Shown here: in pieces, positions 22,552 to 56,717 of the stretch
Layout: every line of letters begins with the position of its first letter
How positions within the stretch are numbered: the stretch's first letter is position 1
Assembly (NCBI RefSeq): GCF_014204985.1
Contig: NZ_JACHMP010000001.1
Location: forward strand, 4,464,001-4,528,000
From: Streptosporangium becharense
GTDB taxonomy: Bacteria > Actinomycetota > Actinomycetes > Streptosporangiales > Streptosporangiaceae
Reading direction: 5' to 3'
Length of the DNA stretch: 64,000 nucleotides
Notes under the pieces: generated by a model
Told to the model about the DNA's origin: nothing
What the model saw: the letters and a program-made list of their open reading frames with translations, nothing else
Database searches by the model: none
Translations under genes and position numbers: made by a program

Positions 22552-22701
22552 GCTTGCGGTAACCGGACCGTTCTGCTCGGGAAGATACGGGGTGCTACCG
22601 ACATTTCTAGATTAGTGTGATCTTTGCCGGAATCTGCCGATAGTTGCCGAATCCTGCCGCGACCTCTAACCTCCTCTTGGCGGAACCCTGGGGAGGTCTC
22701 G

Positions 22702-26985: not shown

Positions 26986-27074
26986 CAACTAGCGTGATCC
27001 GGCTCACCGGGGTGAGGCGGGAGATCCCTCCACGGTGTGATCCGGATGATCGGCGGTCTCCCTAGGCTGGCCGG

Positions 27075-28391: not shown

Positions 28392-28416
28392 CGATCCAGG
28401 CGATCACGGAGGACGC

Positions 28417-29127: not shown

Positions 29128-29285
29128 GGTCCCCAGGGGACCGTCCCACGCCCCGCTCCCCGGGATGGCGCCGCCTCCCTCCCTCCGGGGGGTGACGTGA
29201 AGGTGAGCACCGCGGTGTGACGCGAGTTACCGATCTTGATTCGTAGCGTCCTGTCTCGTTCCCCCGAACCGGACAGGAGGCCCCC

Positions 29286-36075: not shown

Positions 36076-37041
36076 GTGGCGACTCAAACAACCCCTCAGG
36101 AGAGCAAGCGGTCAGTGTTCATGCACTCGGTCGCCGGCCAATCCCGCGCAATCCCCGATTGGTTCACGGCGTGGCTCCGCCTGGGGATCACGACAGCCAA
36201 GGGGTCGCTCGAATCTGCTCAGCGGCAAACTGTTGTAGCCGTCTCAGTCACAACGCGGCTCCAGAGCGCAGCAGCCATCGCCCTCGGGTACGTCTGCCAG
36301 CGCTACACCCAGCGTAACCGCAAGCCTCTGACAGCCGACTGGTCAATCTCCCTCAGTGATGTCACGCCTGGAACGCGGATCTGGGTGAGGACTCCGAAAC
36401 GAGTCATCGTTGGGGACTACCTCACCGGCCTACCGGACCGCCTCTATTTGAATACCCCCAAGACGGGAGCGTTCCAGACCCGGTTGGTGAAGGAGGTTAG
36501 GACGCCTCCACCTGGGGTGTTAACAGTCGGCGCAACAACCTATTCCGACACGGAGACCACCTTCGTGAAGTCTCTGCTGCCCAGCGCAGACCCAGAGGAG
36601 TTCCTCTCGTCGTGGGATTGGGGTCTCTTGCTTGTGGGGTCGCCTGAGCGCATCTACGGCGACCTGGCCGAGCAAATTTCGACGCCGAACGGTCTTCGGT
36701 TCGGCCCTATGAGTTCGATCGTCCGGCCGATCGAACTCACGGCCCCTGTGGGTTGGCGCAGTTCGGTCATGTCCTCCCGGGCGGAGACACCCGCCTGGGA
36801 GGCGTTCCCCACTTCACCGCACTTAGTGATCCTCGACGGGGCCTATGCCACGAGCCGGTGGCTCCCCGAATGCCCGGCCCCTGTAGTCATCGCCATCCTG
36901 GAGCGAACCGAGCCGGGCGTGGACGCGGCGGTGGCCACCTTGATGCAGGAGCGTGCCTACGCAACACCTGTCCGCGACCATGAACTTGGTTGGAACGCAC
37001 CAGCGGGCTGCGAGGTTCTGGCATTCAGGAGGGCACTGTGA
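36076..37041 (+). CDS. Unknown first gene of DISARM-like operon
   Basis: A protein of about 321 residues that I do not recognise. GTG 36076 lies five nt after AAGGGGG; an upstream in-frame ATG at 36010 is possible. Beta-rich segments (ISLSDVTPGTRIWVRTPKRV) precede a Rossmann-like C-terminal region with PHLVILDGAYATSRWLPECP and VVIAILERTEPG, similar in feel to a helicase-type Walker B/motif III without a visible Walker A. It overlaps the next gene by 4 nt (GTGA). By position it, or it together with the next gene, could correspond to DrmE of class 2 DISARM, but no motif confirms this. Confidence 0.7.
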   Translation: MATQTTPQESKRSVFMHSVAGQSRAIPDWFTAWLRLGITTAKGSLESAQRQTVVAVSVTTRLQSAAAIALGYVCQRYTQRNRKPLTADWSISLSDVTPGTRIWVRTPKRVIVGDYLTGLPDRLYLNTPKTGAFQTRLVKEVRTPPPGVLTVGATTYSDTETTFVKSLLPSADPEEFLSSWDWGLLLVGSPERIYGDLAEQISTPNGLRFGPMSSIVRPIELTAPVGWRSSVMSSRAETPAWEAFPTSPHLVILDGAYATSRWLPECPAPVVIAILERTEPGVDAAVATLMQERAYATPVRDHELGWNAPAGCEVLAFRRAL

Positions 37042-38570
37042 ATGGCATCGCCCTCGCCGACAGCTATTACCGCAGCGCCGAGGCAGCCCCGCAGCGCGTT
37101 CATGTGGATGACGCTGCGGCGCACCGGTTTTCCCGGGAAGTCCGATCCCTGCTCAAGGCACTCCAGGACGAACCCGACTCGCCAGCCTGGGAATCCTTAT
37201 CACGTCTCGCCAACGCCGCTCGATGGCGAGGGCTCTACGACCCTGTGCCCTTCTCCAGCGCGGCGTCCACCACCGCTCCGCTGCTCAGAGAACTCGTATG
37301 CTCAGCTGAAGCCCTTCGCATTGGTGCTCCCGTCCACCTTCTGCCATTACTCGACTCCTTGCGGATGACAGCGGAAGCGTACGAGTCCGGAGGCAATGAA
37401 CCATTCGGATCCGCAGTGATGAGCACGTTGGAGGAGGTGGATCCTACCAGCGCCTGTTTGATTGCAAGGAATCGTCGCACTGCCCTCGCGCTCGCGGACT
37501 GGCTGCGATCTCGGCACGGTCAAGCACCTTCCGTCTTCGTGCCTGCCGAATATGCCCGCCACGAACCACTCCATCTCGCCGTCGTCTGTGGGCCGAGTTT
37601 CGTCTTCCCTCTTCAGCTACTCACGACACCCCGAGCCATGGCGGTCCAGCTTGTACACCATCACTGGGTTCGCGACGAGGAGAAGATCCCAGGGCTTTTC
37701 GGCCAATTCGCCACGATAACGCTAACAACACGGATCCAGGAGCCCATGCGCCCAGCGGTGAGCTGGCAACCGTGGAGCGGCACTCCAGCCGCCGAGCTCC
37801 AGATCGCTCCCGACTGGGAAAGCGTTCTGGCTTCCGCCCCCCGGACTCTGGCCAAGGATACCGAGAAGGTGCTTGCCCGCCTTGCCGTACTCGGCGGGAA
37901 GCATGCGATCTGGCTCCCAGTTGAGGGGGAACGCATCCGTGGCCTGGACCCCGCCGCGCCCCCGGGTGAGCGCGTGACTTCCCTGCCCATGTCCTCTGTA
38001 ACTCAAGGCACGATTCTCATCCTCCGTGCGGGGGTCAGTGAAGCCGCGACTACTCGGGAAGTGGCCTATGGGCTGCTCGGAAATACCAAGGGCGCTGAGG
38101 TCAGGCACCTGCAAGAGGATTGGAAGTGCCGGCTTCGGCGGCTACTTGACGATCAAGGGCCGACGGCGATCACTCGGCGGCTCGCCGCACTCGGTGTCGA
38201 GGTTCACAACATCTCGCACTGGGCCCATGAGGAGCTCATCCAACCGCGAAAGGTCGAGGACTTCAAGGTCCTGTTGCGCATGCTCGGGATCGGGGATGTA
38301 ACCACCTACATCGAGGCAGGTCAGGTGCTGCGCCGAGCCGTTGTCACGGCCGGACACCGCCTCATGGAAGCATTGGAAAGCAAGGCCAACAGCTGCGATC
38401 TGCATCAGCTAGAAGCTGGTGGCGTGATCGAACTCCATTTGGATGACGTTCCCGGTGCCGCCCCAATGACCGCTTACCAGGTCCTGGCACTTCGAGAGGA
38501 ACCGACTGCGGTCGCCCTCCGCGATTGCCGCAGACCTTTCGCGATACGAGGAGTGGAATGGCTCGAATGA
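37038..38570 (+). CDS. Unknown second gene of DISARM-like operon
   Basis: A 510-residue soluble protein with no clear catalytic motif. It is helical at the N-terminus (HRFSREVRSLLKALQDEP), has a middle part with LHLAVVCGPSFVFPLQLLTT and TFLIL-type strands, and ends with a helical region (RRLLDDQGPTAITRRLAALG, RKVEDFKVLLRMLGIGDVTT). GTG 37038 follows CAGGAGGG and overlaps the preceding stop by 4 nt; its own stop overlaps the helicase ATG by 4 nt. Translation of the five proteins is therefore coupled and probably stoichiometric. A DrmE-like role is possible; this needs a profile search. Confidence 0.75.
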   Translation: MNGIALADSYYRSAEAAPQRVHVDDAAAHRFSREVRSLLKALQDEPDSPAWESLSRLANAARWRGLYDPVPFSSAASTTAPLLRELVCSAEALRIGAPVHLLPLLDSLRMTAEAYESGGNEPFGSAVMSTLEEVDPTSACLIARNRRTALALADWLRSRHGQAPSVFVPAEYARHEPLHLAVVCGPSFVFPLQLLTTPRAMAVQLVHHHWVRDEEKIPGLFGQFATITLTTRIQEPMRPAVSWQPWSGTPAAELQIAPDWESVLASAPRTLAKDTEKVLARLAVLGGKHAIWLPVEGERIRGLDPAAPPGERVTSLPMSSVTQGTILILRAGVSEAATTREVAYGLLGNTKGAEVRHLQEDWKCRLRRLLDDQGPTAITRRLAALGVEVHNISHWAHEELIQPRKVEDFKVLLRMLGIGDVTTYIEAGQVLRRAVVTAGHRLMEALESKANSCDLHQLEAGGVIELHLDDVPGAAPMTAYQVLALREEPTAVALRDCRRPFAIRGVEWLE

Positions 38571-40267
38571 TCCCCCCGGTGATTGATCGAGGCGCGCCGC
38601 CCGGTGAGCGGCGCCTTTTCGAGCGGCTCCGGAGCGATCCTGGGACAGACGGCTGGATCGTGCTGCATTCGCTGCACATCGCCCAGCACCGCAGACAGGT
38701 GGAAGGCGAGGCGGATTTCGTCATCATCGTTCCCCGCCTGGGAGTTCTGTGCATGGAGGTCAAGTCTCATCGCACCGTCAGCCGCGACAGCTCGGGCACG
38801 TGGCATCTAGGAGCTCAGCAACCGACTAGTCGTAGCCCTTTCACGCAAGCTGCCGAGGCCATGCATAGCCTGAGGGCCTTCCTCGGGAGGAGCAGGCGCG
38901 ATCTCACGCACATTCCGTTCTGGTCAGCGGTCTGGTTCACAGACGCGAATGCGACAGCCGTACCGTCCTCGCCCGAATGGCACCATTGGCAACTCCTTGA
39001 TCGCGGTGATTTGATCCGCCATCCCGTCTCCAGGTCGCTGACTTCCGTCCTGGTCCAGGCACGTCGTCATCTGTCGGCCACCCGGCCCAGCTTTGACGCC
39101 GCGCGAAACGAGCCTACGGAAGCTCAGTGCGAGGAACTGGCCACGAAACTCCGCCCGCGCTTCGAACTGGCAATATCACCGGCCGACGTACGGCGCCTGC
39201 GAGATGACGATCGCCTGACGTTTTTGCAAGAACAGTACGATGCCCTTGACCTCATCGAGTCCGAGCCCCGGGTGCTGTTCGCCGGCGCAGCCGGCACAGG
39301 TAAGACCTTCCTGGCGCTCGAAGCTGCCCGGCGAGCCAGCCTCCAGGGGCAGTCGGCGCGAGTGCTCTGTTTCAACCAGCTGCTGGGCAGATGGCTGGCC
39401 GACCAGCTTGGGAATTTCCCGGGCGTGCGTGCCGGGACCCTCCACCGTGCAATGCTCGACCTGGCCCAGGTGAAGGTACCCGGAGATAATCCGGGTGCTG
39501 ACTGGTGGCAGGAGGAACTGCCCGATCTTGCGCTTGAGGTGTTGTTCGAGCGAACCGATCCCGTCGATGTCCTGATCGTCGACGAGGCTCAGGACCTCTG
39601 CGTCCCAGGGTACTTGGATGTGCTCGACCTCATGGTCAAGGGCGGTCTGGCCGCGGGGAGATGGCTCATGTTCGGTGACTTCCAGCGGCAGGCGATCTAT
39701 GGCCAAGGTGACGGCCGTATAGAGCTGACTGCGCGCGGCCCATCGTTCTTTCAGCCGGTCCTGCACCACAATTGCCGCAACACCCCGCGCATTGGCCAGG
39801 CGGCGGCGCAGCTCACCGGCCTGGGGAACGTCTACCGGAAGTTCCGGCGTCCCGATGACGGCATTGATGTCGAGTACTACAAGTACGGCTCGCCGTCCGA
39901 GCAGGAGACTAAGCTCGCCCGGGCACTTGATGCCCTGTACAAGGACCATTACCCACCCGAGCAGATTGTCGTGCTCTCCGCCCGCACTCAAGGCGCCGCC
40001 CATATCAGCACCTCACCCGCTCTACGCCAGCGGCTGAGCCCTTACTCCTCGGCCAAAGCTGGCCAGACCGGATACTCGACCATTCATGCGTTCAAGGGGC
40101 TCGACGCGCCGGCCGTCATTGTGACTGACGTGGAGTCGGCTGAGGGGCCCGGAGCAGAGGCTCTGCTGTATGTGGCCTTAAGCAGGGGTTCCGATCGGCT
40201 CATCGTGCTCGCCAAGGATCAGGCGATGCGCCAGATGGCGCGCAATCTCGGCAGGGGGTACGCGTGA
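38567..40267 (+). CDS. NERD-domain superfamily-1 helicase (UvrD-like)
   Basis: A 566-residue protein. The N-terminal nuclease-related domain shows GEADFVIIVPRLGVLCMEVK, in which D, E and K match a restriction-type core. The helicase follows: Walker A FAGAAGTGKTFLALEAA, motif II VLIVDEAQDL, LMFGDFQRQAIYG, HHNCRNTPRI and the UvrD_C_2-type GYSTIHAFKGLDAPAVI / LLYVALSRGSDRLIVLA. ATG 38567 lies in an ATGA overlap with the upstream stop; longer readings start at 38525 or 38558. It probably supplies a nuclease/translocase to the DISARM-like system, a role filled by SNF2-type DrmD or PLD-type DrmC in the classical versions. Confidence 0.85.
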   Translation: MIPPVIDRGAPPGERRLFERLRSDPGTDGWIVLHSLHIAQHRRQVEGEADFVIIVPRLGVLCMEVKSHRTVSRDSSGTWHLGAQQPTSRSPFTQAAEAMHSLRAFLGRSRRDLTHIPFWSAVWFTDANATAVPSSPEWHHWQLLDRGDLIRHPVSRSLTSVLVQARRHLSATRPSFDAARNEPTEAQCEELATKLRPRFELAISPADVRRLRDDDRLTFLQEQYDALDLIESEPRVLFAGAAGTGKTFLALEAARRASLQGQSARVLCFNQLLGRWLADQLGNFPGVRAGTLHRAMLDLAQVKVPGDNPGADWWQEELPDLALEVLFERTDPVDVLIVDEAQDLCVPGYLDVLDLMVKGGLAAGRWLMFGDFQRQAIYGQGDGRIELTARGPSFFQPVLHHNCRNTPRIGQAAAQLTGLGNVYRKFRRPDDGIDVEYYKYGSPSEQETKLARALDALYKDHYPPEQIVVLSARTQGAAHISTSPALRQRLSPYSSAKAGQTGYSTIHAFKGLDAPAVIVTDVESAEGPGAEALLYVALSRGSDRLIVLAKDQAMRQMARNLGRGYA

Positions 40268-43200
40268 TGGCGGATTTCCTCGGCTCGCGAGCGCAGGTCC
40301 TCAACGACCTGAAGGCTGAGCTGGTCGGCCCCAAGCCGCTCGGGAAGGCACTGAATCTCTCGAAGACCATCACATTTGCATCGAAAGAAGAGGCTCGCGG
40401 TCCCTGGCGGGATGCCGCCACAGGCGAGGAAATCCTTCACGATTTCAGGCCACTTCGCCGGTACGGCACAGCCGTACTCGCTCCGGCAGGTGAGGAAGAG
40501 ACTCTGGAGGATTCACTGCCAGAATTTGGCACTGTTTCTGACGAGGTCCTCGAACCGCTGATCAGCGACCAGCTCGTCGAGAAGCGCCAGTCGGACATCT
40601 CCAAGATCAAGCAGGAGCTGGACGATGATCTGGATCTCTCCCTGGCGAATACCCGGAAGCAGAGCACGATGGGCATCTCGGTCCACTGCCAGCTCCCCGA
40701 CGCCGCGAAAATTGTCGTGACCGCATCATTCGGCCGATACAAGCCCTTCCAAGTGGACATCGCGGGTAAGGCCGTGGACCCCTGGTGGGTTCGAAGCCCG
40801 GTCTCGGTGAGGGCGGTTTTCAGCGCGAAGAGCCTGGCGCCCACGGGAGTTCGCCGCATGGTGTATCCCGACGAGGTAGCCGTGGAGGGTGCCGATGGCC
40901 TGGAAATCGCAGTGCGCGCCTACAGCCGACGTATCGACGGCAATCACCTGATCACGCTCACGGTCACCAACCGCTCTTCCGGCCGGGGCGATCAAACATC
41001 GCTCTTTCAGGCAGAGTTCTCCGCCCTAGTGGAAGGCGGAGGCGTGTTCCTTCCCTACCCGGAGGAGCGTGGCCGCCGCGACCTGGACGCCGAAGAGCAA
41101 TCGATCGCGCTGCTCTACCGGCATCACCAGACCTTCGCGCTCGGCCATGGCTGCGCGGCGAACTGGGCTCGCGAGCCGGGCGAATCGACGACTCGGGTCG
41201 ATGCGGTTTGCCTGCCGACTTTCGAAACGCCGAGTATCACGCCGGTGATCCGCCGCGAGAACGGCACTGAGCTCGCTGTCGGCATGAAGGTACTCGCCGC
41301 CCCAGAGCGGCGAGACGAGGCAGCATCCCAAGTAGAAGAGATCATCCGGCGCTATGAGCAGTGGATCACAGACCGCTGGGGGGAGGTTCCTGACCAGCAC
41401 CGGCCCGCTGCAGAGGCTCACCTTCGCCAATGCGAGGCGGCTCTCGCTCGCATGCGCCGCGGCTGGGAGCTCATCTGCACGGATGGGCAGATCGCCACCG
41501 CCTTTCGTCTCGCCAACCAAGCCATGGTTGACCAGCAGGCAAGGTCAAGCGTCTCCCCCAGGGAGACCTTGCTCGATGGGCAAGGGTTTATCAGCGTTGA
41601 GGGAGACCCCCCTACGGGTGAACTGCCTCCCGGACGCGGAGACTGGCGTCCCTTCCAGATCGCCTTCTTCCTGGCCGTTGTCGAGTCAATCGCTTTCCCC
41701 CAGAGCGATGACCGGGACAACGTTGAGCTGATCTTCTTCCCCACAGGGGGAGGCAAGACCGAGGCTTATCTGGCCGTGGCTGCCTTCGCGATGTTCCTGC
41801 GGAGACTGCGAGATCCCGGTGACGTCGGGACTGAGGTCATCATGAGGTACACACTCCGGCTTCTGACCGCGCAGCAGTTCCTCCGTGCAGCAGCTTTGAT
41901 CTGCGCCATGGAACAACTCCGCGCTGGCCGTAGCGACCTGGGCAGCGAGCCGTACACCATCGGCATCTGGTTGGGTGGCGCAACGACACCAAACAGGCGC
42001 GACAAGGCGGTGGAGGCGTGGAAGGACATGGCCAAGGAGCCTGCCCAGGCAGCCAACAAATTTTTACTGCTGCGCTGCCCATGGTGCGCGGCAAAGCTTG
42101 GGCCGACCGCCGAGCAGATGAAGGCCCGCGGCAGACGGATTCGGCATTCAGTTATTCCCGGATACCGTTATCACCGGAATCCTGATCGAATTGCCCTGGA
42201 ATGCCCCGATAATCGATGCCCCTTCCACCGAGGACTGCCCCTACTGGTCGTAGATGAGGACATCTACGAGAAGCCGCCCTCGATGGTGATCGGCACAGTG
42301 GACAAGTTCGCCATGATTCCGTGGCGGCCCCTGGCCCGGGCGCTCTTCGGGCGAGACGGGTCGGGGCGGCAGGTCGCCTCTCCTCCTGGCCTGATCATCC
42401 AGGATGAGTTTCACCTGATTTCTGGCCCACTCGGCTCTATGGTGGGTATGTACGAGGCGGTAGTCGAAGACCTCTGCACCGATCGCCGCAAGGCAGTTCC
42501 AGTCAAGCCAAAGATCATCGCTTCCACCGCCACCATTCGGCGATATGCGCAGCAGGCGAAGGCAGTGTACGGCCGGGATCGGGTCGCTCTCTTCCCGCCA
42601 TCCGGACTGACCGCCGAGGACTCCTTTTTCGCCGTATGGGCGCGGGACGAGCGGACCAAGCAACTGCTCCCAGGTCGGCTCTATGTTGGAGTTCACGCAC
42701 CAGGCCTGGGCTCGATCCAGAGTGTTCAGGTCCGGACAGCCGCGGCACTCCTCCAGTCCGGAGGATACCTGCCCGACGAGCAGAAGGATCCTTGGTGGAC
42801 TTCCCTATGGTTCTTCAACAGCCTCCGGGAACTGGGCAACACCTTGTCTCTGATCCAAGCGGACATCCCGGATTATCTTGTCGGCATCCGGCGACGCGAA
42901 GGAATCGAACAGGCACGCTTCCCCCGGACCACCATGGAGCTCACGAGCCGCCGCCGGAACGACGAAATCCCGCGTGCGATCGACGAACTGGCCACCGACT
43001 TCGCCACCGGTAAAGCCATCGACATCTGCTTAGCATCCAACATCATCGAAGTCGGCGTCGACATCGACCGGCTCTCTCTCATGGCCGTCGTCGGCCAGCC
43101 CAAGACCACCTCTCAGTACATCCAGGTCACCGGCCGCGTCGGCCGCCGATGGCAGGAACGTCCTGGTCTGGTGGTCACGCTGTATGGTGCCGCCAAGCCG

Positions 43201-45557: not shown

Positions 45558-45898
45558 GATGGATGCTGGCGTCACCAGCCTCCCCTTTCCCGACGCCTGC
45601 AGGTGACGGGCCTGTCTAGAGCCATTGTTCTTACAGTCCTGGCTTTCATCGATCGCGCCACACGATGGATGCGAAGTCCGTGATCGTCACGGCCCTCAGT
45701 TGCGATGCCCGCTGTAGGAGAGCGTGGATTGTAAGGCTGGTCTGCCTCGTTCGACCTGCAGGAATAAGCTGTCCGGCTCGTCGGGCGGACAAGATCATCC
45801 CGCGCATGTCCCTGCGCGATGCGACTGTGTAATAAGCATTCGGATGGTCATACTCGCTGCTGTAGCACCGCGAAGCGACGTGTGGTTCATGCGCGTGG
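45558..45898. other. Intergenic between convergent DrmB and Vsr-like genes
   Basis: A 341-bp interval. A 115-codon minus-strand frame crosses it but has no family features and overlaps the Vsr-like gene, so it is not called. No strong terminator hairpin is visible. Confidence 0.5.
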
Positions 45899-46483: not shown

Positions 46484-46490
46484 CACCTGT

Positions 46491-49400: not shown

Positions 49401-51524
49401 GACAGGCGCGTACTCCTCATGTCCGGCCGATTCCCGCATCGGAATGGCAATCGTGCCGCCGGGCCCGACGAGGATCGCAGGTGTCCCATGGGGGGAGATA
49501 CGATCGATGGCGTCGAAGAAGAGGTCCTCGTTCTCCTGGTTGAGACTCAGCCCTCCCTCCTTGTTCAGGGCCGTCTTGATGCTGCCGGCGGCCTCCGCGT
49601 AGTTCTTTGCCAGCCAGCGCAGCTTCAGCGGGTGGGTGGCCAGCATCATCATGCGGTGGTCGGCCAGCCCGACGACATCGGTCAGGACGACGGCCTCAAG
49701 GTCTACGTTCGGGGCGTTGTTGGGAACCAGGGCGGTGCGAGCTGCGCGGAGTATGCCTTCCCATTCGCGTACGTATTCGTTGATGTTCTCGGCCTCGAGC
49801 CCGTCGGAGATCCGCTTGAAGTGCTTCTGTTTGAGGCGCTCCATCTGGCTGGCGAAATGTGATGTGGGTTCGGGCACGGGCTCGTCGACCTGCCAGTGCC
49901 TGGGCTCGTTGAACTTCTGAAGGAAGGTGTCAAAGGTCAGATTGCTGACATGGCCGGAGGGAGGTCTCCAGCCGTGGATGAGGGCCGCCAGAGCGATCTG
50001 GCCAGGGATGCCCAGGGGGTCCCAGCGGAAGCGTCGCTGGGCGGCACCGTCCATCTCGACCAGGATGCGCAGCGGGGCCCACTCGATGTTCGGGTCAAAC
50101 GGCTCGTCTTCCTGCGGCAGGCGCGGCTTGGTCAGGTCCAGCAGGCACTCCTTGACCTCGAGAGTCAGGCGAAGTCCGGTGGAGTCCTGGACATCTCGCA
50201 GGGTGCGTGCGTACAGGAAGGCGAACAGCCAGCGGCTCCACTGTCCGGCTTCCTGGTTGCCTTCAAGCCCGACGACGACGGAGCCTTCCTCTTCGTCGGA
50301 AAAGTAGGTCAGCTCGCGCAGCAGGGCACGCAGTGGGTCATGGACGAATTGAGAGTCCGGGAAGGCGAGTTTTTCGACTTTGCGGCGACATCGCTTGGAC
50401 AGCAGGTCGGCTAGCGGTTCGGTTCCTCCGACGGGAGCCTCGTCAAGGAAGCGCTGTGCGGATTCCTGGTCTCCGCGGTCGAGCGCGTCTTCGATCATCA
50501 TGGCGTCGTACTCGTCGACCCGCTCTGCGGCGCTCCGCTCGATCTCCTGACGGATCTGCTGGCCCAGGCCGATCTTCTTGGACTTCTGCTCGAACACTTC
50601 AAGCCATAGGGTCAGGTCCTGCTCACGGCGAAGCTGACGAGCATCCTGCGGGGTAGAACCATTGAGCTTGAGTACCAGGCTGCGCATGCGCGTTCTGGCA
50701 GTATCGGCGTCCATGCCGATGTGCTCCAAGGACTCCTCGCTGAACTCAGTCGTGGCGATGCGATCTATCAGGTCGTCCTCGGTGATCTCCTTGCCGGTGG
50801 GCTGTTTGAAGGCACTGACCCAGACGTTCTTCTTGATTCGGGCGGGCAGCGCAGCGGGCTTGATGAAGAGCCCTCGGTCCGGAAAGAGATCAAGAGCGGG
50901 CAGGGCTGCAGAGATCTCGGAGTAGACCACGTCAGGGGTATGGACCTGAGTTGCTGCGACTTTCTGCGCGGTTTCGACCAGGAAGGTCGCCCAGCGGCGC
51001 AAGGACCGGGGCGCCTCATCGGTGACGGCACGCCAGATCTCCGGCAAACGGGTGGCCATGAGGGCCGGAACGGTGCCGATGCCACCGGCCTCCCGCCACG
51101 CTTCTGCCATGAACCTTTCGAACCCGCGCTCGCCGGAGGTGTCGTGGTGATCCCCCAGGATCGTGGCGTCGTCAAGGGCGTTCATGGCCGCCAGCCCCTG
51201 TGCGTCCGGCGACTCCCCCCATTCGAAGAGCAACACCGCCGTACCCTGTCCCGAATTTCGCCACTTGGTCAGCTGGTCCTGCGGATCCAGCAGGTAATCA
51301 ACCGGTACGCCTTCGATCGGCTCCGAGGTGCCGACCTTGACGACAACCTGACGGTCCGGCGATTCCAACAGCCTCTGGGCCGTGCGACGGAGAGCCTCGG
51401 CCACGGTCGGCCGATCGAATCCACTGACTCGCAGGACGGCACGGGCTCCGCTGATATCAGTGACCTTGCGCAGCGCTTCGTCGGCGACGAACCGACCGAG
51501 CGCTCGGATACTGCTGTCGGTCAC
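46491..51524 (-). CDS. dptH: DptH-like restriction ATPase with FtsK/HerA domain
   Basis: A 1677-residue protein. The C-terminal 300 residues are an FtsK/HerA motor: ADIEGNPVTIDLSSADSPHL, Walker A VAGTTGSGKSVALDT near residue 1470, Walker B PWIVVVLDEYADL near residue 1566, then AAGIHVIAATQRPSADVIS. The long N-terminal region is helical and unrecognised. Size, C-terminal motor and position third after a P-loop protein and a mid-size partner match DptH (DndH) of phosphorothioate-dependent restriction. GTG 51524 overlaps the DptG-like stop by 4 nt. No dnd modification genes are in the window. Other large FtsK-domain defence proteins are the main alternative. Confidence 0.7.
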   Translation of the reverse strand: MTDSSIRALGRFVADEALRKVTDISGARAVLRVSGFDRPTVAEALRRTAQRLLESPDRQVVVKVGTSEPIEGVPVDYLLDPQDQLTKWRNSGQGTAVLLFEWGESPDAQGLAAMNALDDATILGDHHDTSGERGFERFMAEAWREAGGIGTVPALMATRLPEIWRAVTDEAPRSLRRWATFLVETAQKVAATQVHTPDVVYSEISAALPALDLFPDRGLFIKPAALPARIKKNVWVSAFKQPTGKEITEDDLIDRIATTEFSEESLEHIGMDADTARTRMRSLVLKLNGSTPQDARQLRREQDLTLWLEVFEQKSKKIGLGQQIRQEIERSAAERVDEYDAMMIEDALDRGDQESAQRFLDEAPVGGTEPLADLLSKRCRRKVEKLAFPDSQFVHDPLRALLRELTYFSDEEEGSVVVGLEGNQEAGQWSRWLFAFLYARTLRDVQDSTGLRLTLEVKECLLDLTKPRLPQEDEPFDPNIEWAPLRILVEMDGAAQRRFRWDPLGIPGQIALAALIHGWRPPSGHVSNLTFDTFLQKFNEPRHWQVDEPVPEPTSHFASQMERLKQKHFKRISDGLEAENINEYVREWEGILRAARTALVPNNAPNVDLEAVVLTDVVGLADHRMMMLATHPLKLRWLAKNYAEAAGSIKTALNKEGGLSLNQENEDLFFDAIDRISPHGTPAILVGPGGTIAIPMRESAGHEEYAPVRHGGNESKDWLSSVDETAIDEMVRVITDYLTTYPHKLDGLRVLLLDRNGDPVLPMRVAKQMRAKSPRLKVDLVVLAPQATHHEIIQGFDLQFSGAEMSEDSFLPDVQLILQAWEPDQEADLSGLEDTIDLALAPALFGTQTSIKESTKKESLSGSFNSWKHPASHNLAQTSENVVRALLPETADETLESWSTLCVRYDRRSPVSRESVDGIDYFEMQVRFDQHQDLFTTLHRVAHWVVTLDSFIGREQIDALRNRPDVILVKPRVGKNESYTLIVSSQTGQQFVVRRLRRRLEQIGVVTPQDSEGTAKRIYEVGRNVAPGAVLRSLGIGTTVNEVVGLVATRFVIDQQFPVPRQGTSLVTWISFDEHHRWFGRGHKTRADLGRFVLTVQDDGMVRLDILVAESKFRQTFDVGSAEEQLNRTTDLCEDAFRSDGEVRHDRPFWLDELAAAIAQSSGNVLKAADLPARTVIGDDGHRQVEAKVLDALRSEDVQLGQVTGVAVAISAEDDQPAPVVGSLGKHTLVRLNKHELLNLIGALRANQDPADADPLVASRDLGGTVKVSGSAVQTTLTDISAKLPTPEEPTAPAEVVGTTAPTNVPRVVIARHSAAEADPVPPKAHRGGLPEEELRLRYNKVVDVFVRHKVAVSSPEFGKWQEGPGFYIFRFIPNPGVTVDKLTNRRDEIFLALALPSGFSIRTRSDRGSVLFEIPKIDDEKYGVDAKALWQQCPVDPESLIAPLGADIEGNPVTIDLSSADSPHLLVAGTTGSGKSVALDTILKGLIRYDKSALRLRLVDPKGTELVDFEDDPHLDGMIGMDAADAIEILEETVKEMDERYKDMKAIRARKLVEYNAKVDKADRKPWIVVVLDEYADLTSDPEEKKQIEALLKRLTQKARAAGIHVIAATQRPSADVISTTIRSNFPAQLALRVKTATDSRIILDETGAEALAGHGDAFLHTAKGTIRLQVAYDGS

Positions 51525-52972
51525 CGGGGTTCCCCTCGAACCATGCTGGTTGCATCTGAATATTGAGTGAGCAGACCGATAGCGGCCAGCTTTTCCCGGA
51601 ACGCCTTGCCGTTGTGGTCAAGGATCGACGGGTCGACCTCGTAAGCCAACGGGCTCGCAGCCGCGACCTTGTTCTCCACCACGAGCCCGTACTTCTCGTA
51701 CAGCAATGCACAGAACTGGTCAAACTCCATCTCCGTGCCCTGCGGGACGGTGGCAGATACCAGACCCTCAAGCATCGGGGGCTTCATGGTGAAGTGTCGG
51801 CGCCCGACCGTCGCATTCAGGGCTCCCACAGCAGCGAGGGTCTCACTGAAGAACGCTCGGGGAGAGGCGACCGCGCTGCCGGCCTCTTTGGTGAACCTTT
51901 CGTAGCGGCGCTTCCTGTCCTCGTCACCTTCGGCTTCGATTTCGTCGATCATTTCCTGAGCCTGGACATTGATCGCGTTCACGATGTCATTGCGGAAGCC
52001 GGTGAGGTTCTTCTGCGACTCTCTGCGCAGCGGGGTTGCCTCGTTGCCGAAGTCCAGCAGGATCGACTCGTGATCGGTAACACCGAGCTTCGTCCGTGCG
52101 AGGTGCAGCTGGTGGCGTGCCAGGCAGTAGGGGACCCAGTGCATGAGGCTCTCGGTGCGCTTTGCTCTGGGGACCGTCGCAATCCGAGTGACAATGTTGC
52201 GGGTCCCTTCCCTCAGCAGATCAGGCCACGGGCTGAGATCCTCGCGCAGCTCGATTCCTGCGTCTGGGCCCGCCACGGGCGCTTCGTCGTAGTCGAAGTC
52301 GTGCGCGCTGAGGGCCTTGGCAAGGTTGCCCAGCGGAGTGCCGCTGTCCTGTACGAGGTCGGTCAGGCCCTTTCGAGTCGCTTCCTTGCGGTCGGCATCA
52401 GGGTCGCTGCGTAAGACTTTGTAGGCCCATCCCCCGCCATCGCGGAAGAGGTAACGCTCGATACTCGGAGCATTGATGCCAGCAGCGACCTTGCCGGCCT
52501 GCTTGCGCTTCTTGTCGCTGCTCTTGGAGGAGGCATCGGTTTGCTTGATTCGTCGTTCGACTGCGTCGTAGTGGATGAGCTCACCAACGAACGGATAAAT
52601 GTGCACGCCGAACCAACCGGGTTGGCTACGACGCCCGGGGATTTCGACCAACAGGGAGGAGAACAGGGCGTGGAGCGTTGCCATCGTCTCAGGGGAGTCC
52701 AGCTCGACGGCCTTGCTTAGTTCCTCGTTGCCCTCGACGATGGGGGACCTGGTCGCGATCCGCCGGACCAGGTCGTGCGAGGTCCTTCTATAAGCTGTAT
52801 CGGCTCCGCCGTCCAGGAGCCCTGCGAACTTCTCCGGGTCTTCCTGATGCGCCAGGTAGACGCCACGGGCGATCGCGAGCATCTCGAGCGGGACGTAGAA
52901 GCCGCGGCCCTGCCGTTCGAGATTCACCCCGAAGAGACGAAGGACAACCTCAGCCTTGGAACGATCGGCCAT
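51521..52972 (-). CDS. dptG: DptG-like restriction subunit
   Basis: A 483-residue soluble protein without known motif. It starts RSKAEVVLRLFGVNLERQGR and contains FVGELIHYDAVERRIKQTDA and a C-terminal EMEFDQFCALLYEKYGLVV. The call rests on its place between DptF-like and DptH-like genes, a size near the usual 430-480, and coupling at both ends: TGATG with the DptF-like gene and GTGA with the DptH-like gene. In phosphorothioate systems DptG is a scaffold or DNA-binding member of the F-G-H complex. Confidence 0.6.
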   Translation of the reverse strand: MADRSKAEVVLRLFGVNLERQGRGFYVPLEMLAIARGVYLAHQEDPEKFAGLLDGGADTAYRRTSHDLVRRIATRSPIVEGNEELSKAVELDSPETMATLHALFSSLLVEIPGRRSQPGWFGVHIYPFVGELIHYDAVERRIKQTDASSKSSDKKRKQAGKVAAGINAPSIERYLFRDGGGWAYKVLRSDPDADRKEATRKGLTDLVQDSGTPLGNLAKALSAHDFDYDEAPVAGPDAGIELREDLSPWPDLLREGTRNIVTRIATVPRAKRTESLMHWVPYCLARHQLHLARTKLGVTDHESILLDFGNEATPLRRESQKNLTGFRNDIVNAINVQAQEMIDEIEAEGDEDRKRRYERFTKEAGSAVASPRAFFSETLAAVGALNATVGRRHFTMKPPMLEGLVSATVPQGTEMEFDQFCALLYEKYGLVVENKVAAASPLAYEVDPSILDHNGKAFREKLAAIGLLTQYSDATSMVRGEPR

Positions 52973-54804
52973 CAGGCGCGCACCGACCTGATCTTATCGC
53001 CGACGTCGATCATAAGTTTTCTCATGGCGTTGCCCGCCAATACCTGAATCTCGTCGTCCTTGTTCGACGAGTCGGCCAGCTCTGCCAGGGATCCACTCAG
53101 ACCGCGGATCTCTGCCTCATGCTGGACCTCGCTGCGCAGGCCCGCGGCCCACCGTGTCAGCAACTCAAAGCGCAACAAGTCCGCTTCCACCGAGACCGCG
53201 TCTTGGTCAGGGGTGACGGCCGGGATGCGGATGTAGATGGCCCGGTTGAGCCACTCGACGGCGTTCTGCATCTCAGGGGCGACGCCCGTCCGGCCTCTCT
53301 CTTGCCACTGGGTGATCTGGTCGACAACCTCGACACCCTTGCTGGGCACTCGCCGAGAGATCACGGCCGCGCGGCCGCGGTGGGTGAAAAAGGCCGGGTC
53401 GAGTATCAGGAAGTCGGGGTTGCTCCCTGCCCGGTGGATGCCCTGGACGGCCTCCAGGCCCTTGAGAAAGCGGTCTCGTACCCTGGTGTCTGCCGGGTCC
53501 CGGTTCTTGTCCTGGACACTGACGAAGTCGTCGCCGGCCTGCAGCCCCATGCGGGCGAACCGGTCCTTGTTGTCGTCGCTGTTGAAGAAGTCGGCTCGTC
53601 GCAGGAACGTGTACACGCTTCGCAACTGTTCGGCCTGCTTTTGGACGTCCCGACTCGTACGGACCTTCTGCAGGTAGCTACTGGCATCCGCGGGAGGGAA
53701 GTCGCTGGCCGTTTCCGGGTCCAGCCGGTCGTCGACCTGGCGGCGGGAGACCTTGCCCGGGTCCAGTTTTCGTAGTGCGAAGAAGGCAGGTACCAGATGA
53801 CGCTGTTGCTGGGTCAGCCGGTCACCGAAGAGGGCCTGGTGGTACAAGTGGGGGGCCTGCCATAACCTATTCGAGTGCGACCGCTGGTACTTGGCGTGGA
53901 CGTTCTCGCAGGAAAGGCCACCGGTTAGCATGTAGCTGGTCACGGCCAGGGCCTGACGGGTCGTGAGTACGGCCCCGGTGCGCTCGGCCGCGGCGAACAC
54001 GTCCCGGATCGCGGCCCGGCGCTGGGGCCCGTGGGTCGGATCGCTGAGCTCGTTGCGGTTGGCCAGGATTGGGCAGACTTTCCGTGCATCGCAGGTCTCG
54101 CAGGGCTTCCATCGCGACCATTGCGTCGTCGTCCACTGCTTCAGGACCCACTGGATGAGCCCGCCGTTGGGGCTGTCGGCCGCTACGGACTGGTAGTTGA
54201 GGTTGATGACGGTGACTGTGCCATCGGGGTCGCTGACCTGCCCGCGGAGGATGCCTTCCGTGAGGGTCGTCACCAGGATCTTGGCGCGCCCCGTGCCGCC
54301 TTTGCGGAGACTATCGTCTTCGGCGGCGCACTTGCGTAGCTGGCCCTCGTTTGCACAGATGATCGCGACACCCCCATCCGCAGGGTCGAGCAACTCCACG
54401 AGCTTGTGAGCGCCCGCCTGCACGCTGAGCTCGCTGAGATCCTTAAGGATGTACAGCGGGCGTCCGCTACGGGTCCGACCAATAGGGCGGCTGGCATCGC
54501 CGGCCTTGGACAACTCGCGGAAAACCGTCTTCCGGATCTCTGGTGTGACCGTCTCGGTGTCGGCCTGCAGCTCGGCCAGAAGGCTGGCGCACAAGCTTGT
54601 CTTGCCATGCCCGGCGTCCCCGGTCAGGACGATGGTTTTCATGGTCGGTCGCTCAATGGCGCTCAGCAGGTAGTCCAGCGTCACGACAGGGAACAGCGAC
54701 TGCGTCCAGTCTTCCTGCAGCTCGTAGATCATCTCGGAGGTGTCGGCGTCGAACGGCTGGTAACGACGTATCCGTTGAACGTGTTTGTTGACCTCTAGCG
54801 GCAT
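52972..54804 (-). CDS. dptF: DptF-like restriction ATPase
   Basis: A 610-residue P-loop protein with Walker A VLTGDAGHGKTSLC at residues 62-69 and likely Walker B in GRPLYILKDLSE or GVAIICANEGQLR. A zinc-type cluster follows near residue 240 (WKPCETCDARKVCPILANR), then long helical regions (RRADFFNSDDNKDRFARMG). An early P-loop plus a CxxC...CP cluster and the F-G-H order fit DptF. ATG 54804 follows AAGGAC. It opens the leftward operon F-G-H-Vsr; the methyltransferase on the same strand lies 857 bp upstream. Confidence 0.65.
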   Translation of the reverse strand: MPLEVNKHVQRIRRYQPFDADTSEMIYELQEDWTQSLFPVVTLDYLLSAIERPTMKTIVLTGDAGHGKTSLCASLLAELQADTETVTPEIRKTVFRELSKAGDASRPIGRTRSGRPLYILKDLSELSVQAGAHKLVELLDPADGGVAIICANEGQLRKCAAEDDSLRKGGTGRAKILVTTLTEGILRGQVSDPDGTVTVINLNYQSVAADSPNGGLIQWVLKQWTTTQWSRWKPCETCDARKVCPILANRNELSDPTHGPQRRAAIRDVFAAAERTGAVLTTRQALAVTSYMLTGGLSCENVHAKYQRSHSNRLWQAPHLYHQALFGDRLTQQQRHLVPAFFALRKLDPGKVSRRQVDDRLDPETASDFPPADASSYLQKVRTSRDVQKQAEQLRSVYTFLRRADFFNSDDNKDRFARMGLQAGDDFVSVQDKNRDPADTRVRDRFLKGLEAVQGIHRAGSNPDFLILDPAFFTHRGRAAVISRRVPSKGVEVVDQITQWQERGRTGVAPEMQNAVEWLNRAIYIRIPAVTPDQDAVSVEADLLRFELLTRWAAGLRSEVQHEAEIRGLSGSLAELADSSNKDDEIQVLAGNAMRKLMIDVGDKIRSVRA

Positions 54805-55661
54805 GCTGCTGTCCTTTGTCGACCGAGCCGAGAGCGTTGTGAAATTCTAGCTGTCGGGGCCGCTGTCGGTAGGTCAAATTCCCTGGCCGAGCGCTGAATT
54901 CGCCTGGTTCACGCTGTGTGACTGTGTTAGAGGCCGCGAGAATCATTGATCATGATTGGTGATGAGACACTCAATGTTGACTGCGATCGCGCTTAAGACG
55001 TGTGCGACCTGAGCTTTGACGACCTCTGGGTAGCAACAGCGCGCATTCGATGGTCGTTGATGAGCTTATTCAGGATGCCCGTGATGCCAGCAGGTGAGGC
55101 GTGGAACCGCCGCGATCAGCACGTCAGGTTACATTCAGATACCGGTCTACGTACACACTCATCCTTGATCGAGTGCGGTGACCGCTCGTTCCGCCAGTTC
55201 TAAGAGGCAAGGACCGATAGGGGACCACACATGGATGAGCGGTGCCCCTTGCGAGCCAAGCAGAGGCCGAAGTTTAAGGAGGGCTCCGTTCCCCCGCGAG
55301 TCGTCGATCTTGCGCTGGCTGCGATGGCTCACCCTCGGCATCGCCCAGGGCGGCCCAGAAGCATGACGTCTCGCTCGATGTTGGTCTCGCAGTTACCTTA
55401 GAGGCAGCTCTATCGGCCTCGCGTGCTGGGCTAACAACGGGCTGCTCCGACTATGAGCCGTCAGCAATAATGCTGCTGGTGAGCTGCAGCCGTTCGATCG
55501 AGAACTTGTTTGTGTCAGCATCCCAGGCAATTTTCATCAGCCTAGACAGGTCGGCAGCAGAATTGCTGTAGAGGTTGATTTCAAGCGGCTCGATGACCGC
55601 CACGTCGACGATCACTCAAACCTGGAAGAGCCACCGCTCGCGACCGGTATCCGCCAATCCC
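54805..55661. promoter_or_regulatory. Upstream region of the DptFGH-like operon
   Basis: The region is 857 bp without a supported gene, comparatively AT-rich. It has an inverted repeat AATCAT-TGATC-ATGATT at 54941-54957, 137 bp upstream of the DptF-like start, as a possible operator. On the minus strand TAGAAT (complement of 54844-54849) could be a -10 box; no well-spaced -35 is evident. Short frames at 55000-55366 have no family features. Some of it may be decayed mobile DNA. Confidence 0.45.
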
Positions 55662-56717
55662 CTAGCAGGCCTGCTGATTGACTGCCGCGAGGAGGGCGCT
55701 CCCCACCGCTTGTGCGATCGCAGGAGGAACAGCATTTCCGATCATTCGACCTATAGAGTTGAACTCCACAGGTTCTCCTGGCCTGACAAACTGGTAATTC
55801 TCTGGAAATCCTTGGAGTATCGCCGCTTCCCGCAGGGTAATCGCACGATCTTGCTCCGGATGGCCGAACCTTCCGGTACCGAAATTGTACGACATAGTCG
55901 TGATAGTTGGAGACGGCTTGTCCCATTCCATGCGGGCATAGACGTTCTTGAACGTGGCGCCAGAAGGCCTAGTGTGGCAAGGAGATAGCAGCTCTGTTGG
56001 CCAATCATGCCATGTCCCCCCTGGCCTGGACGCTTTGATTCGCTTCAGGTTCAGAGGGCTTAAAGATCTTGCCTTATGCATGCTATCAAGGTCATGCGTT
56101 CTCCCTTGATGAACTGCCGGGAGGCCGGAAATCGCATCTCTCACCGTCGTGAACTCTTCGGGCTTGCGTTTACCTCCAGGGACCTCGATGTGTCCGATTC
56201 GCGACGCAATGAGAACAAGTCGACGACGCTCTTGCGGAAGGCCATATTCCGGGCCGTAGCAGCTTTTAAAAGAAACTTCGTAACCAATTTCTTCGAGAGA
56301 GCTGGAAAACTCCCTGAAGATCTTGGAGCCCACGATTCGAGGGACATTTTCCATGGTCACAAGCTCAGGGCGAGAATCTTTGACGAGTCGTGAAAATTCA
56401 CCAAGGAGCGACCACTGCGGCTCTGAAGACGTATCTACGCCTCGCCTGTAGGGCGAGAAGGGCTGGCACGGCGCGCATCCCGCCAAGAGGCGTATTGAGT
56501 CTGGCTCCCATAGAAGCTCAAGCTGCTCTTTAGAGACCGTCCGGACATCTTGCTCAATGAACGGAGCTTCAATATTTTTCTCGAATGGGTATTTGCATCG
56601 AGGATCTATATCAAAACCGGCGACTACGTTCAGCCCAGCCTGCATCAGTCCATGCGACAGCCCGCCCACTCCGCAGAAGAGATCTATCGCTGAGATGCGC
56701 CTTGCCATGTCGCCCAT
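55662..56717 (-). CDS. C5-cytosine DNA methyltransferase, DrmMII candidate
   Basis: A 351-residue complete 5mC methyltransferase. Motif I is SAIDLFCGVGGLSHGLMQAG, motif IV is CAPCQPFSPYRRG with catalytic Cys84, VI is TMENVPRIVG, VIII is PQERRRLVLIAS and X is GRMIGNAVPPAIAQAVG. The target-recognition region is short. GC content is clearly lower than that of the chromosome, so recent transfer is likely. It is on the same strand as DptFGH and near drmAB. Class 2 DISARM uses a 5mC methyltransferase (DrmMII) for self-marking, so that role is proposed. ATG 56717, or ATG 56708 (MARRISA). Confidence 0.9.
   Translation of the reverse strand: MGDMARRISAIDLFCGVGGLSHGLMQAGLNVVAGFDIDPRCKYPFEKNIEAPFIEQDVRTVSKEQLELLWEPDSIRLLAGCAPCQPFSPYRRGVDTSSEPQWSLLGEFSRLVKDSRPELVTMENVPRIVGSKIFREFSSSLEEIGYEVSFKSCYGPEYGLPQERRRLVLIASRIGHIEVPGGKRKPEEFTTVRDAISGLPAVHQGRTHDLDSMHKARSLSPLNLKRIKASRPGGTWHDWPTELLSPCHTRPSGATFKNVYARMEWDKPSPTITTMSYNFGTGRFGHPEQDRAITLREAAILQGFPENYQFVRPGEPVEFNSIGRMIGNAVPPAIAQAVGSALLAAVNQQAC

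Follow-up and report, generated by a model that had tools for sequence, protein, structure and literature searches.

An SspFGH-type complex accompanied by a C5 methyltransferase and a Vsr nuclease adjoins a DISARM-like DrmAB module in Streptosporangium becharense

RESULTS

Two convergent gene sets in one stretch

Does a stretch of Streptosporangium becharense DNA in which DrmA and DrmB face an FGH complex and a C5 cytosine methyltransferase encode one methylation-gated system or two? A first-pass annotation of the 64,000-nt stretch (the window; all coordinates are window positions) had raised both possibilities, the latter as two systems sharing one self mark. Two convergent gene sets adjoin there (Table 1): a coupled operon on the plus strand at 36.0 to 45.6 kb, consisting of u343, u526, a NERD-SF1 helicase, DrmA, and DrmB, and a minus-strand set at 45.9 to 56.7 kb, consisting of the methyltransferase, SspF, SspG, SspH, and a Vsr nuclease. 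sspF and sspG overlap by 1 base, and 4-base overlaps occur at sspG/sspH, u343/u526, NERD/DrmA, and DrmA/DrmB. The flanks contain IS3 transposases, one IS4 transposase, and one phage-type integrase. Profile matches (PADLOC, Pfam, and NCBIfam) found all the named genes where the first-pass annotation had placed them, far above chance, which bore out its calls of drmA and drmB, an FtsK-type giant with two coupled partners in F-G-H order, a Vsr-like nuclease, a C5 methyltransferase, and IS and integrase flanks. What that inventory had overlooked was an NaeI-type restriction-modification (R-M) set at 22.6 to 26.7 kb (HNH, NaeI, Vsr, and C5 methyltransferase), which contains a second C5 methyltransferase/Vsr pair. 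In addition, the Vsr gene on the FGH side probably starts at 46324 and not at the listed open reading frame start, 46558, because its relatives align only from about residue 69 to 87 of that frame.

Table 1. Features of the two convergent gene sets, the NaeI-type set, and the flanks
Feature	Position	Strand	Evidence
HNH protein of NaeI-type R-M set	22624..23427	+	PF01844 E 5.4e-5
NaeI-family restriction endonuclease	23424..24428	+	PF09126 E 4.4e-113
Vsr endonuclease of NaeI-type set	24686..25183	-	PF03852 E 3e-20
C5 methyltransferase of NaeI-type set	25279..26730	+	PF00145 E 1.3e-56
IS3-type transposase, left edge of DrmAB operon	34119..35216	-	PF00665, PF13276
u343, first gene of DrmAB operon	36010..37041	+	No PADLOC, Pfam, or NCBIfam match
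u526, second gene of DrmAB operon	37038..38570	+	510 aa from GTG at 37038; no family match
NERD nuclease-like domain fused to SF1 (UvrD-like) helicase	38558..40267	+	PF08378 E 1.8e-13; PF13538 E 6.1e-8
DrmA helicase, short DrmAS type	40264..43683	+	PADLOC E 1.3e-205; NF038325 868.9 bits
DrmB (DUF1998/MZB)	43680..45557	+	NF038324 429.7 bits; PF09369
Vsr-type endonuclease of FGH system	45899..46324	-	141 aa from likely ATG; PF03852 E 9.3e-16; TIGR00632 E 6.2e-35, over cut-off
SspH (DptH-like), 1677 aa	46491..51524	-	PADLOC SspH E 1.3e-96; PF01580 E 6.5e-36
SspG (DptG-like)	51521..52972	-	PADLOC SspG E 1.2e-14
SspF (DptF-like)	52972..54804	-	PADLOC SspF E 2.5e-31; P-loop GDAGHGKTSL; tree
Spacer between methyltransferase and sspF	54805..55661	-	Conserved in four loci
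C5 cytosine DNA methyltransferase of FGH system	55662..56717	-	351 aa, PCQPF motif; PF00145 E 1.9e-54; PADLOC DrmMII/MTase_II
IS3-type transposase, right of FGH system	59313..60233	+	PF00665, PF13276
Tyrosine recombinase/integrase	60306..61280	+	PF00589 E 5.3e-10

Identity and conservation of the FGH complex

The order of F, G, and H, their family-profile matches, and the motifs of H identify the minus-strand genes, at the sequence level, as a complex of the SspFGH/DndFGH type. The description as DptFGH-like needs a correction: models of SspF, SspG, and SspH matched, but none of the DptF/G/H models, nor any of DndF/G/H, reached an E value of 0.01 for the window proteins in profile searches. 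SspG was found in all 18 FGH relatives, and the SspF P-loop was identical in 19 of 19 aligned rows. In SspH, LDILVAESK at residue 1104 was picked out by eye as a PD-(D/E)XK-like motif, and the C terminus is an FtsK translocase, with FtsK solved structures matching residues 1362 to 1667; every one of the 19 rows retains the P-loop as well as the motif's D, E, and K. Selection on the FGH system was seen in dN/dS values of 0.11 to 0.16 across F, G, H, and the methyltransferase (0.11 to 0.14 for the methyltransferase itself). SspG had no relative among viral contigs and no match among plasmids. For SspH, no plasmid record reached 80% query coverage at a single place; the 40 matches listed were to the FtsK part. 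A single-sequence FGH query of the class sample matched its own genome only (1 of 394), with 2 first-look candidates scored per genome; since only 2 to 4 such candidates per genome were scored in the class-sample searches, the rates may be too low.

A C5 methyltransferase and Vsr recur beside FGH

The proposed link between FGH and methylation gained support from the relatives, as a C5 methyltransferase lay within 1.6 kb of sspF on the genome contigs in 16 of 18. These methyltransferases represent at least three lineages and are 22 to 97% identical to that of the window; copies that are 89 to 97% identical occupy the same position beside FGH in L006, L014, and L020. In five other loci (L007, L008, L009, L011, and L015), two common neighbors follow on the side of the methyltransferase that faces away from FGH; those of L008 encode a tRNA synthetase and a glycosyltransferase and not a restriction endonuclease. 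Even in the divergent locus L097, where the best pieces of F, G, and H are 26 to 32% identical, methyltransferase, F, G, H, and Vsr stand in a row on one strand. In two Nocardia loci (L004 and L005), the 25 kb around FGH lacks a C5 methyltransferase, and in both genomes a methyltransferase/Vsr pair is present elsewhere. Comparison of the window methyltransferase with solved structures gave no readable specificity for its recognition motif.

A Vsr gene was found within 10 kb of FGH in 11 of 18 relatives, against a background of 32 Vsr matches over the roughly 162 Mb that make up the 19 genomes. The probability of this proximity arising by chance was 1.6e-21, a value that used 33 Vsr matches and 164 Mb and treated related loci as independent. 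The other seven loci had no full Vsr within that distance. The L007 contig ends just past sspH, L006 has a Vsr fragment within 10 kb and a full Vsr 18 kb off, the L020 Vsr is 24 kb away, and none was detected in the stretches around FGH in L004, L005, L012, and L013.

When SspH was compared between two groups of loci (13 of the 19 rows; L004, L005, L013, L016, L018, and L019 were left out), columns 661 to 1140 were 94 to 97% identical between loci whose methyltransferases were only ∼30% identical. This means that FGH may not read the motif of its methyltransferase.

Comparison with phosphorothioate-linked and MADS loci

The best-matching FGH models come from SspABCD-SspFGH, in which FGH is phosphorothioate gated and, according to the available excerpts of that study, toxic without its mark (Wang et al. 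2021, PMC8092258). The same excerpts describe Vibrio SspFGH as dependent on the right sequence context. Common to that system and the window are a three-gene complex matching the SspF, SspG, and SspH models, the FtsK-type giant, and a putative self mark from neighboring genes. Unlike that system, the window FGH has no recognized phosphorothioate gene beside it but a C5 methyltransferase and Vsr instead, and its SspF forms a separate clade in the SspF tree (L119, the same strain as L113, was left out). In a genome-wide search for DndC, the gene was absent from the own genome and from 18 of 19 FGH genomes, and on this absence of DndC a canonical phosphorothioate system was rejected; the single DndC-bearing genome was that of L005, on another contig. 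The own genome has only two PAPS-reductase matches, both below E 1e-43, and these are taken, by score, as CysH/CysD. Plasmids gave a different picture of the FGH neighborhood. Among 13 inspected plasmid FGH regions (18 records had an SspF match, and six were left out of inspection), nine had a PAPS-reductase gene beside FGH, one had a phosphorothioation-associated gene, one was MADS-like, and two had no mark gene. Phosphorothioate genes thus accompany FGH in 10 of the 13, and a C5 methyltransferase or Vsr in none (tblastn, E 1e-4).

In the MADS system (mad1 to mad8; Maestri et al. 2024), the partners of FGH are reportedly mad2, a type I-like methyltransferase, and mad5, an S subunit, and F is reportedly fused to NERD and kinase domains. 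By profile and sequence matches, the mad6 C terminus, mad7, and mad8 are SspF-, SspG-, and SspH-like. The window FGH is likewise methylation associated, but unlike MADS it has a one-chain C5 methyltransferase, a plain F, and a Vsr. MADS membership was ruled out by NCBIfam scores far under the cut-offs (MADS7, 22.6 versus 410 bits; MADS8, 16.9 versus 175) and by SspF, which at 610 aa has no kinase match in Pfam. The 18.5 to 20 kb around each of eight MADS-like loci contained neither a Vsr nor a C5 methyltransferase.

The DrmAB module and the NaeI-type set

The plus-strand operon contains the DISARM core, DrmA plus DrmB, as the first-pass annotation held, without the full DISARM set. DrmA matched NCBIfam DrmAS (NF038325) with an E value of 6.3e-261, its bit score being under the curated cut-off of 950, and DrmB was over its cut-off of 240. 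Like DISARM, the window has adjacent, coupled DrmA and DrmB with a 5mC methyltransferase nearby. Unlike DISARM, the operon has no DrmC but a NERD-SF1 helicase and two proteins without a family match, and its DrmA falls under the NCBI DISARM cut-off. No PLD match was found in the window, which rules out the full DISARM set (the three PLDc_2 matches in the genome all lie outside the window); DrmC, the PLD nuclease, was reported as nonessential in the accessible part of a DISARM study (PMC9142583). As to the DISARM methyltransferase, the one at 55.7 kb matches DrmMII (PADLOC E 4.7e-92) but adjoins FGH, and the other candidate belongs to the NaeI set.

Among six relatives of the five-gene module, u343 homologs (17 to 28% identity) occupy the same position in five, u526 homologs (24 to 31%) are present in five, and the NERD-helicase is 35 to 51% identical in L053 to L056, 45% in L064, and 39% in L122. 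None of the u526 homologs matched PADLOC; the best solved structure for u526 was a SWR1-complex protein (E 0.00069), u343 matched no solved structure, and DrmA had no relative among viral contigs. A C5 methyltransferase lay within 4 kb of the module in all six relatives and a Vsr beside it in four, with no full Vsr in the stretches of L056 and L122. A recognizable restriction endonuclease was near the module in three: NaeI in L064, AspBHI/Mrr-like in L055, and MvaI/BcnI in L056 (the L122 neighbors were outside the scan). FGH was absent from the stretches around the module in six of six relatives, and the five-gene operon from 18 of 18 FGH loci. Since, across the loci compared, either module is encountered where its counterpart is missing, one fused DrmAB-FGH system, the first of the two options in the first-pass annotation, was rejected as unsupported. 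The refuting conditions set by that annotation gave a mixed outcome: Ssp and not Dpt models matched FGH, and although the five-gene operon did not co-occur with FGH in the loci compared, a different DrmAB subclade lies 10 to 29 kb away from the complex in 3 of the 18.

The NaeI endonuclease and the adjoining C5 methyltransferase are predicted from gene content to form a type II (NaeI) R-M system. On pROB02 of Rhodococcus opacus B4 (L064), HNH, NaeI, Vsr, and C5 methyltransferase directly adjoin the five-gene DrmAB operon, and the 29 kb examined there contained only FtsK-part matches and no FGH. The window NaeI-set methyltransferase is 56 to 57% identical to those beside the operon in L064 and L055, and its Vsr is 63% identical to the one on pROB02. 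Unlike on pROB02, the NaeI set of the window is ∼9 kb from the DrmAB operon, with unrelated, GC-rich genes and also IS elements in between, so their link is drawn solely from homology to L064 and L055. Judged by this homology, the NaeI-type set is most likely the partner of the DrmAB module here.

DISCUSSION

We consider it fairly probable that two adjacent, convergent systems are present: a 5mC-marked R-M system using SspFGH and Vsr and, beside it, a DISARM-like module of u343, u526, NERD-helicase, DrmA, and DrmB partnered with the NaeI set, in line with the C5 methyltransferase, frequent Vsr, and (in half) restriction endonuclease of its relatives. The FGH system would be an ATP-dependent R-M system with the SspFGH-type complex as its restriction machine. 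The single-chain C5 methyltransferase would put 5mC on host DNA, the recognition and nuclease part of SspH would find unmarked DNA, and its FtsK motor would translocate, so that DNA without 5mC would be restricted and marked self DNA spared. Vsr would mend T:G mismatches arising from 5mC deamination.

Could one mark instead serve both? The 55.7-kb methyltransferase, or both methyltransferases, would then shield the host from FGH and DrmAB, with the intervening Vsr serving both. Indeed, the 36- to 57-kb region contains only one methyltransferase and one Vsr, and in L008 the FGH Vsr is the sole Vsr near the neighboring DrmAB operon; the accessible part of PMC9142583 also reports a lower ATPase activity of Serratia DrmAB with 5mC, in that 5mC-bearing DNA stimulates it less, and DrmAB is said there to depend on no particular sequence. 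Of the 18 other FGH genomes, 9 have DrmA, versus 63 of the 393 genomes of the class sample (Fisher p 0.0012), a comparison unmatched for lineage and genome size and uneven in depth, with 2 first-look candidates scored per genome in the class and all candidates in the FGH genomes. However, the DrmA near FGH elsewhere is of another subclade (36 to 38% identical, no u343 or u526), and the match in the L008 genome is interrupted by a stop codon. A shared mark becomes less likely because the window has a second methyltransferase/Vsr pair, of the lineage adjoining the DrmAB operon in two relatives; together with the separate recurrence of the modules, this leads us to regard it as unlikely.

Just as unlikely, in our estimate, is that FGH is a stand-alone counter-invader complex blind to the methyl mark, and the methyltransferase and Vsr a neighboring type II remnant, kept, e.g., through Vsr making methyltransferase loss costly. 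The variable methyltransferase lineage beside a near-constant FGH and the two Nocardia loci fit this, as do a 2024 survey whose available text argues for DndFGH as stand-alone, with no inbuilt modification module (Rakesh et al. 2024, PMC10853773), and the proposal, in the accessible part of PMC12907096, that a Caulobacter Vsr-like protein stabilizes a solitary cytosine methyltransferase. Yet the association holds for at least three lineages of the methyltransferase and appears again in the row of the distant L097, and in five loci the methyltransferase stands between FGH and two common neighbors, neither of them a restriction endonuclease in L008. That Vsr acts as an effector in restriction, brought in by DrmAB and/or FGH, and not as a repair enzyme seems to us quite improbable. 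The window offers DrmAB no PLD nuclease, vsr lies between the two operons, and ARMADA YprA helicases carry fused, predicted active Vsr-type domains in the portion of PMC12458937 available; but the pairing of Vsr and a C5 methyltransferase is in keeping with very short patch repair (PMC12907096, in part), and a nearby full Vsr is missing from 7 of 18 FGH loci and 2 of 6 five-gene relatives.

In the FGH set, a complex that cuts DNA in systems with sulfur-marked DNA has apparently been rewired to a plain methyl-cytosine mark. FGH is usually studied as phosphorothioate gated, and the recurrent methyltransferase-F-G-H-Vsr unit, a compact 5mC counterpart of MADS, would offer a simple one-enzyme mark with which it becomes testable whether FGH reads mark chemistry, sequence, or mere absence. 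We lean slightly toward FGH being a mark-agnostic restriction machine that evolution joined to phosphorothioate (Ssp/Dnd), to N6-methyladenine (MADS), and, here, to 5-methylcytosine with its own Vsr. If so, the similar SspH stretch beside ∼30% identical methyltransferases would mean that it reads a motif both make or senses 5mC without a motif. The neighborhoods of FGH, DrmAB, and NaeI suggest that, in actinobacteria, a C5 methyltransferase and Vsr together form a chassis to which different restriction modules attach. Finally, the spacer between the methyltransferase and sspF, which had no match in Rfam, has a mean column identity of 75% in four loci, highest near sspF, and is presumed to be a promoter or leader.

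Gene content of the window

All genes named in the first-pass annotation were found again by profile scans (table below). The composite defense locus that it described is itself well observed, but its reading was over-unified, and the recurrent methyltransferase-F-G-H-Vsr unit is a stronger finding than the composite locus. Its DptFGH-like operon stood as FGH genes, which were matched by Ssp models, but not as Dpt, since no DptF/G/H or DndF/G/H model matched a window protein at E 0.01 in profile scans. At the gene junctions checked, F and G share 1 base, and the overlap is 4 bases at G/H, u343/u526, NERD/DrmA, and DrmA/DrmB (u343 and u526 are proteins without a family match). The spacer between the methyltransferase and sspF (54805-55661) is conserved, most strongly at the sspF end, and gave no Rfam match. 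Past the methyltransferase, on the same strand, lies a DUF4365 protein (57694-58659) that is not part of the conserved unit.

Features of the window
Feature	Position	Strand	Evidence
HNH protein of NaeI-type set	22624-23427		
NaeI of NaeI-type set	23424-24428		
Vsr of NaeI-type set	24686-25183		
C5 methyltransferase of NaeI-type set	25279-26730		
Five-gene DrmAB operon (two unknown proteins, NERD-SF1 helicase, DrmA, DrmB)	36010-45557	plus	profile scans
Vsr of FGH system	45899 to about 46324	minus	profile scan
SspH	46491-51524	minus	profile scan
SspG	51521-52972	minus	profile scan
SspF	52972-54804	minus	profile scan
C5 methyltransferase of FGH system	55662-56717	minus	profile scan

A second methyltransferase/Vsr pair, overlooked in the earlier annotation, is part of a complete NaeI-type restriction-modification set (22624-26730). 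At E 0.001, Vsr matched twice and C5 methyltransferase three times in the 7.8-Mb genome, one of the methyltransferase matches being a weak fragment; the window holds both Vsr and both full methyltransferases. A two-component system and an acyltransferase lie between this set and the DrmAB operon (26800-31200), where GC is about 0.72 compared to about 0.60 to 0.65 in the set and the operon, which suggests two islands or one split island.

A recurrent methyltransferase-F-G-H-Vsr unit

One genome_contigs scan with SspH yielded 18 relatives in Nocardia, Streptomyces, Nonomuraea, Georgenia, Herbidospora, Glycomyces, and Actinomadura. Every one has F, G, and H, and 16 have a C5 methyltransferase no more than 1.6 kb upstream of sspF; the exceptions, L004 and L005, are both Nocardia loci. 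In 11 of the 18 (L008 to L011, L014 to L019, and L021), Vsr is no farther than 10 kb away. Among the other seven, the L007 contig stops about 0.2 kb past sspH, in L006 a Vsr fragment follows sspH at about 5.5 kb while the full Vsr is 18 kb off, L020 has a Vsr 24 kb off, and none was found in the examined stretch around FGH in L004, L005, L012, and L013. The Vsr background was 32 matches in about 162 Mb (19 genomes); the chance of the association, computed with 33 matches and 164 Mb and with related loci treated as independent, was 1.6e-21.

By identity to the window's enzyme, the methyltransferases beside FGH form at least three lineages: one near it (L006, 97%; L014, 90%; L020, 89%; L018, 57%), one of 384 to 422 aa at 29 to 31% (L007 to L013, L015, L017, L019, and L021), and the separate L016 enzyme at 22%. 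L019 also has a second methyltransferase, 56% identical to the window's. At L019:1500-4576, a GHKL-type ATPase gene (PF13589) is followed by this enzyme, adjoining the 422-aa-lineage one; the ATPase is possibly a third effector type on the same methyltransferase chassis. F, G, H, and the methyltransferase are under purifying selection (dN/dS 0.11 to 0.16 versus L006, L020, and L014). The P-loop and nuclease-like motif (D, E, K) of SspH are kept in 19 of 19 rows, with conservative changes in Walker B. SspH columns 661-1140, with putative target recognition, inactive methyltransferase, and REase domains named after the accessible text of Rakesh et al. (PMC10853773), are 94 to 97% identical when four rows carrying the window's methyltransferase type are compared with nine carrying the 422-aa type; the methyltransferases of these two groups are about 30% identical.

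Comparison with phosphorothioate FGH and MADS

Plasmid FGH records numbered 19 (18 found by SspF, one by the SspH of L097), of which 13, two from one strain, were inspected. A PAPS-reductase-family gene adjoins FGH in 9 of the 13; L117 carries a phosphorothioation-associated gene along with a DUF4007 gene, in L116 an N-6 DNA methylase is found together with a long kinase protein, and no mark gene was seen in the inspected stretch of L120 or L121. None of the 13 regions gave a C5 methyltransferase or Vsr match (tblastn, E 1e-4). DndC occurs in 1 of 19 FGH genomes, that of L005, on a contig different from the FGH contig. The strong PAPS-reductase matches of the FGH genomes were taken as CysH/CysD, judged by score; further matches occur in the genomes of L005 (two), L004 (weak), and L017 (about 430 kb from FGH).

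An SspF profile search of the class, with up to three candidates scored per genome, matched 15 of 345 genomes: the window's, L097, and 13 others with open frames of 1270 to 1571 aa, which fits expected kinase-F fusions. Eight of these 13 were taken as a MADS-like sample (L098 to L105); L098, scanned for gene content, has mad2, mad5, mad6, mad7, and mad8, and the examined stretches of all eight lacked a C5 methyltransferase or Vsr. The FGH genes of L097 are divergent (best pieces 26 to 32% identical to the window's); there, a C5 methyltransferase, F, G, H, and Vsr follow one another on a single strand, and the Vsr frame has its first ATG 6 bases past the sspH stop. The SspF tree (40 rows, plasmid region L119 omitted) contains three groups with support of 99 to 100: the window's clade (19 rows, including L004 and L005), the plasmid Ssp/PT group (11 rows, including the mark-gene-less L120 and L121), and MADS (9 rows). 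L097 sits on a long branch, weakly placed beside MADS (94/71). Because several long branches meet (program warning), the order of the groups is not fixed by the tree, and therefore the 5mC link with FGH is either old or was gained more than once.

Proposed roles and published systems

The C5 methyltransferase of the FGH unit would place a self mark on DNA, FGH would attack DNA without that mark, and Vsr may limit mutation at 5mC. According to the accessible text of the sources, SspFGH is toxic when a cell lacks the phosphorothioate mark, and the mark in another sequence context gives no protection (PMC8092258); in Caulobacter, a solitary cytosine methyltransferase is functionally linked with a Vsr-like protein (PMC12907096). 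The accessible text of Rakesh et al. places cytosine methylases with CxC-DndE systems, not FGH, and the word Vsr is absent from its main text (PMC10853773). No description of FGH accompanied by both a C5 methyltransferase and Vsr appears among the open-access literature matches listed or in the accessible main-text parts of PMC12904381, PMC12839542, PMC12458937, PMC12707154, PMC12907096, PMC8092258, PMC9142583, and PMC10853773.

The DrmAB operon and its relation to FGH

Of 58 other matching class-sample genomes, the four with the nearest DrmB (L053 to L056; u343 of L056 matched only partly by tblastn) have the same five genes, as does pROB02. A phylum-wide search with u526 matched 3 of 366 genomes (the window's, that of L054, and that of L122); L122, which came from this search, has four of the five genes, u343 not being detected. 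In 6/6 relatives, the operon has a C5 methyltransferase no farther than 4 kb away, Vsr accompanies it in 4/6, and an REase was recognized by Pfam or record annotation in 3/6, five of the six having been covered; the scanned neighbors in L053 and L054 gave no recognized REase. The NaeI set of pROB02 is located 0.5 to 4.4 kb downstream of the operon; identity to the window's NaeI set is 56% for the methyltransferase and 63% for Vsr. In two more distant DrmAB operons (L057 and L058), none of u343, u526, and the NERD helicase was matched. DISARM typically has DrmC, although DrmC is reported as nonessential in the accessible text of PMC9142583; the window has no PLD match.

Nine of the 18 other FGH genomes have DrmA, versus 63 of 393 class-sample genomes (Fisher p 0.0012), an excess that may be inflated because all candidates were scored in the former and two per genome in the latter, and the samples were unmatched. 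The expected co-occurrence of the two gene sets was borne out in part: the distance between DrmAB and FGH is no more than about 30 kb in L020 (about 10 kb), L008 (one stop codon inside the DrmA match; about 11 kb), and L006 (about 29 kb), but these DrmAB pairs belong to another subclade (36 to 38% identical) with no u343 or u526, not to the window's own. Clustering of defense genes in islands would explain this co-occurrence without shared function.

In nine FGH genomes with short-type DrmA (L065-L074), a C5 methyltransferase and Vsr lie within about 15 kb of the best DrmA operon (9/9); in L008, this Vsr is the one that adjoins FGH. The L006 genome has a second, long-type DrmA with no Vsr near it. 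Besides the DrmAB pair upstream of FGH, L020 carries a broken DrmB-like remnant downstream (L020:23021-23762), with pieces 39 to 58% identical.
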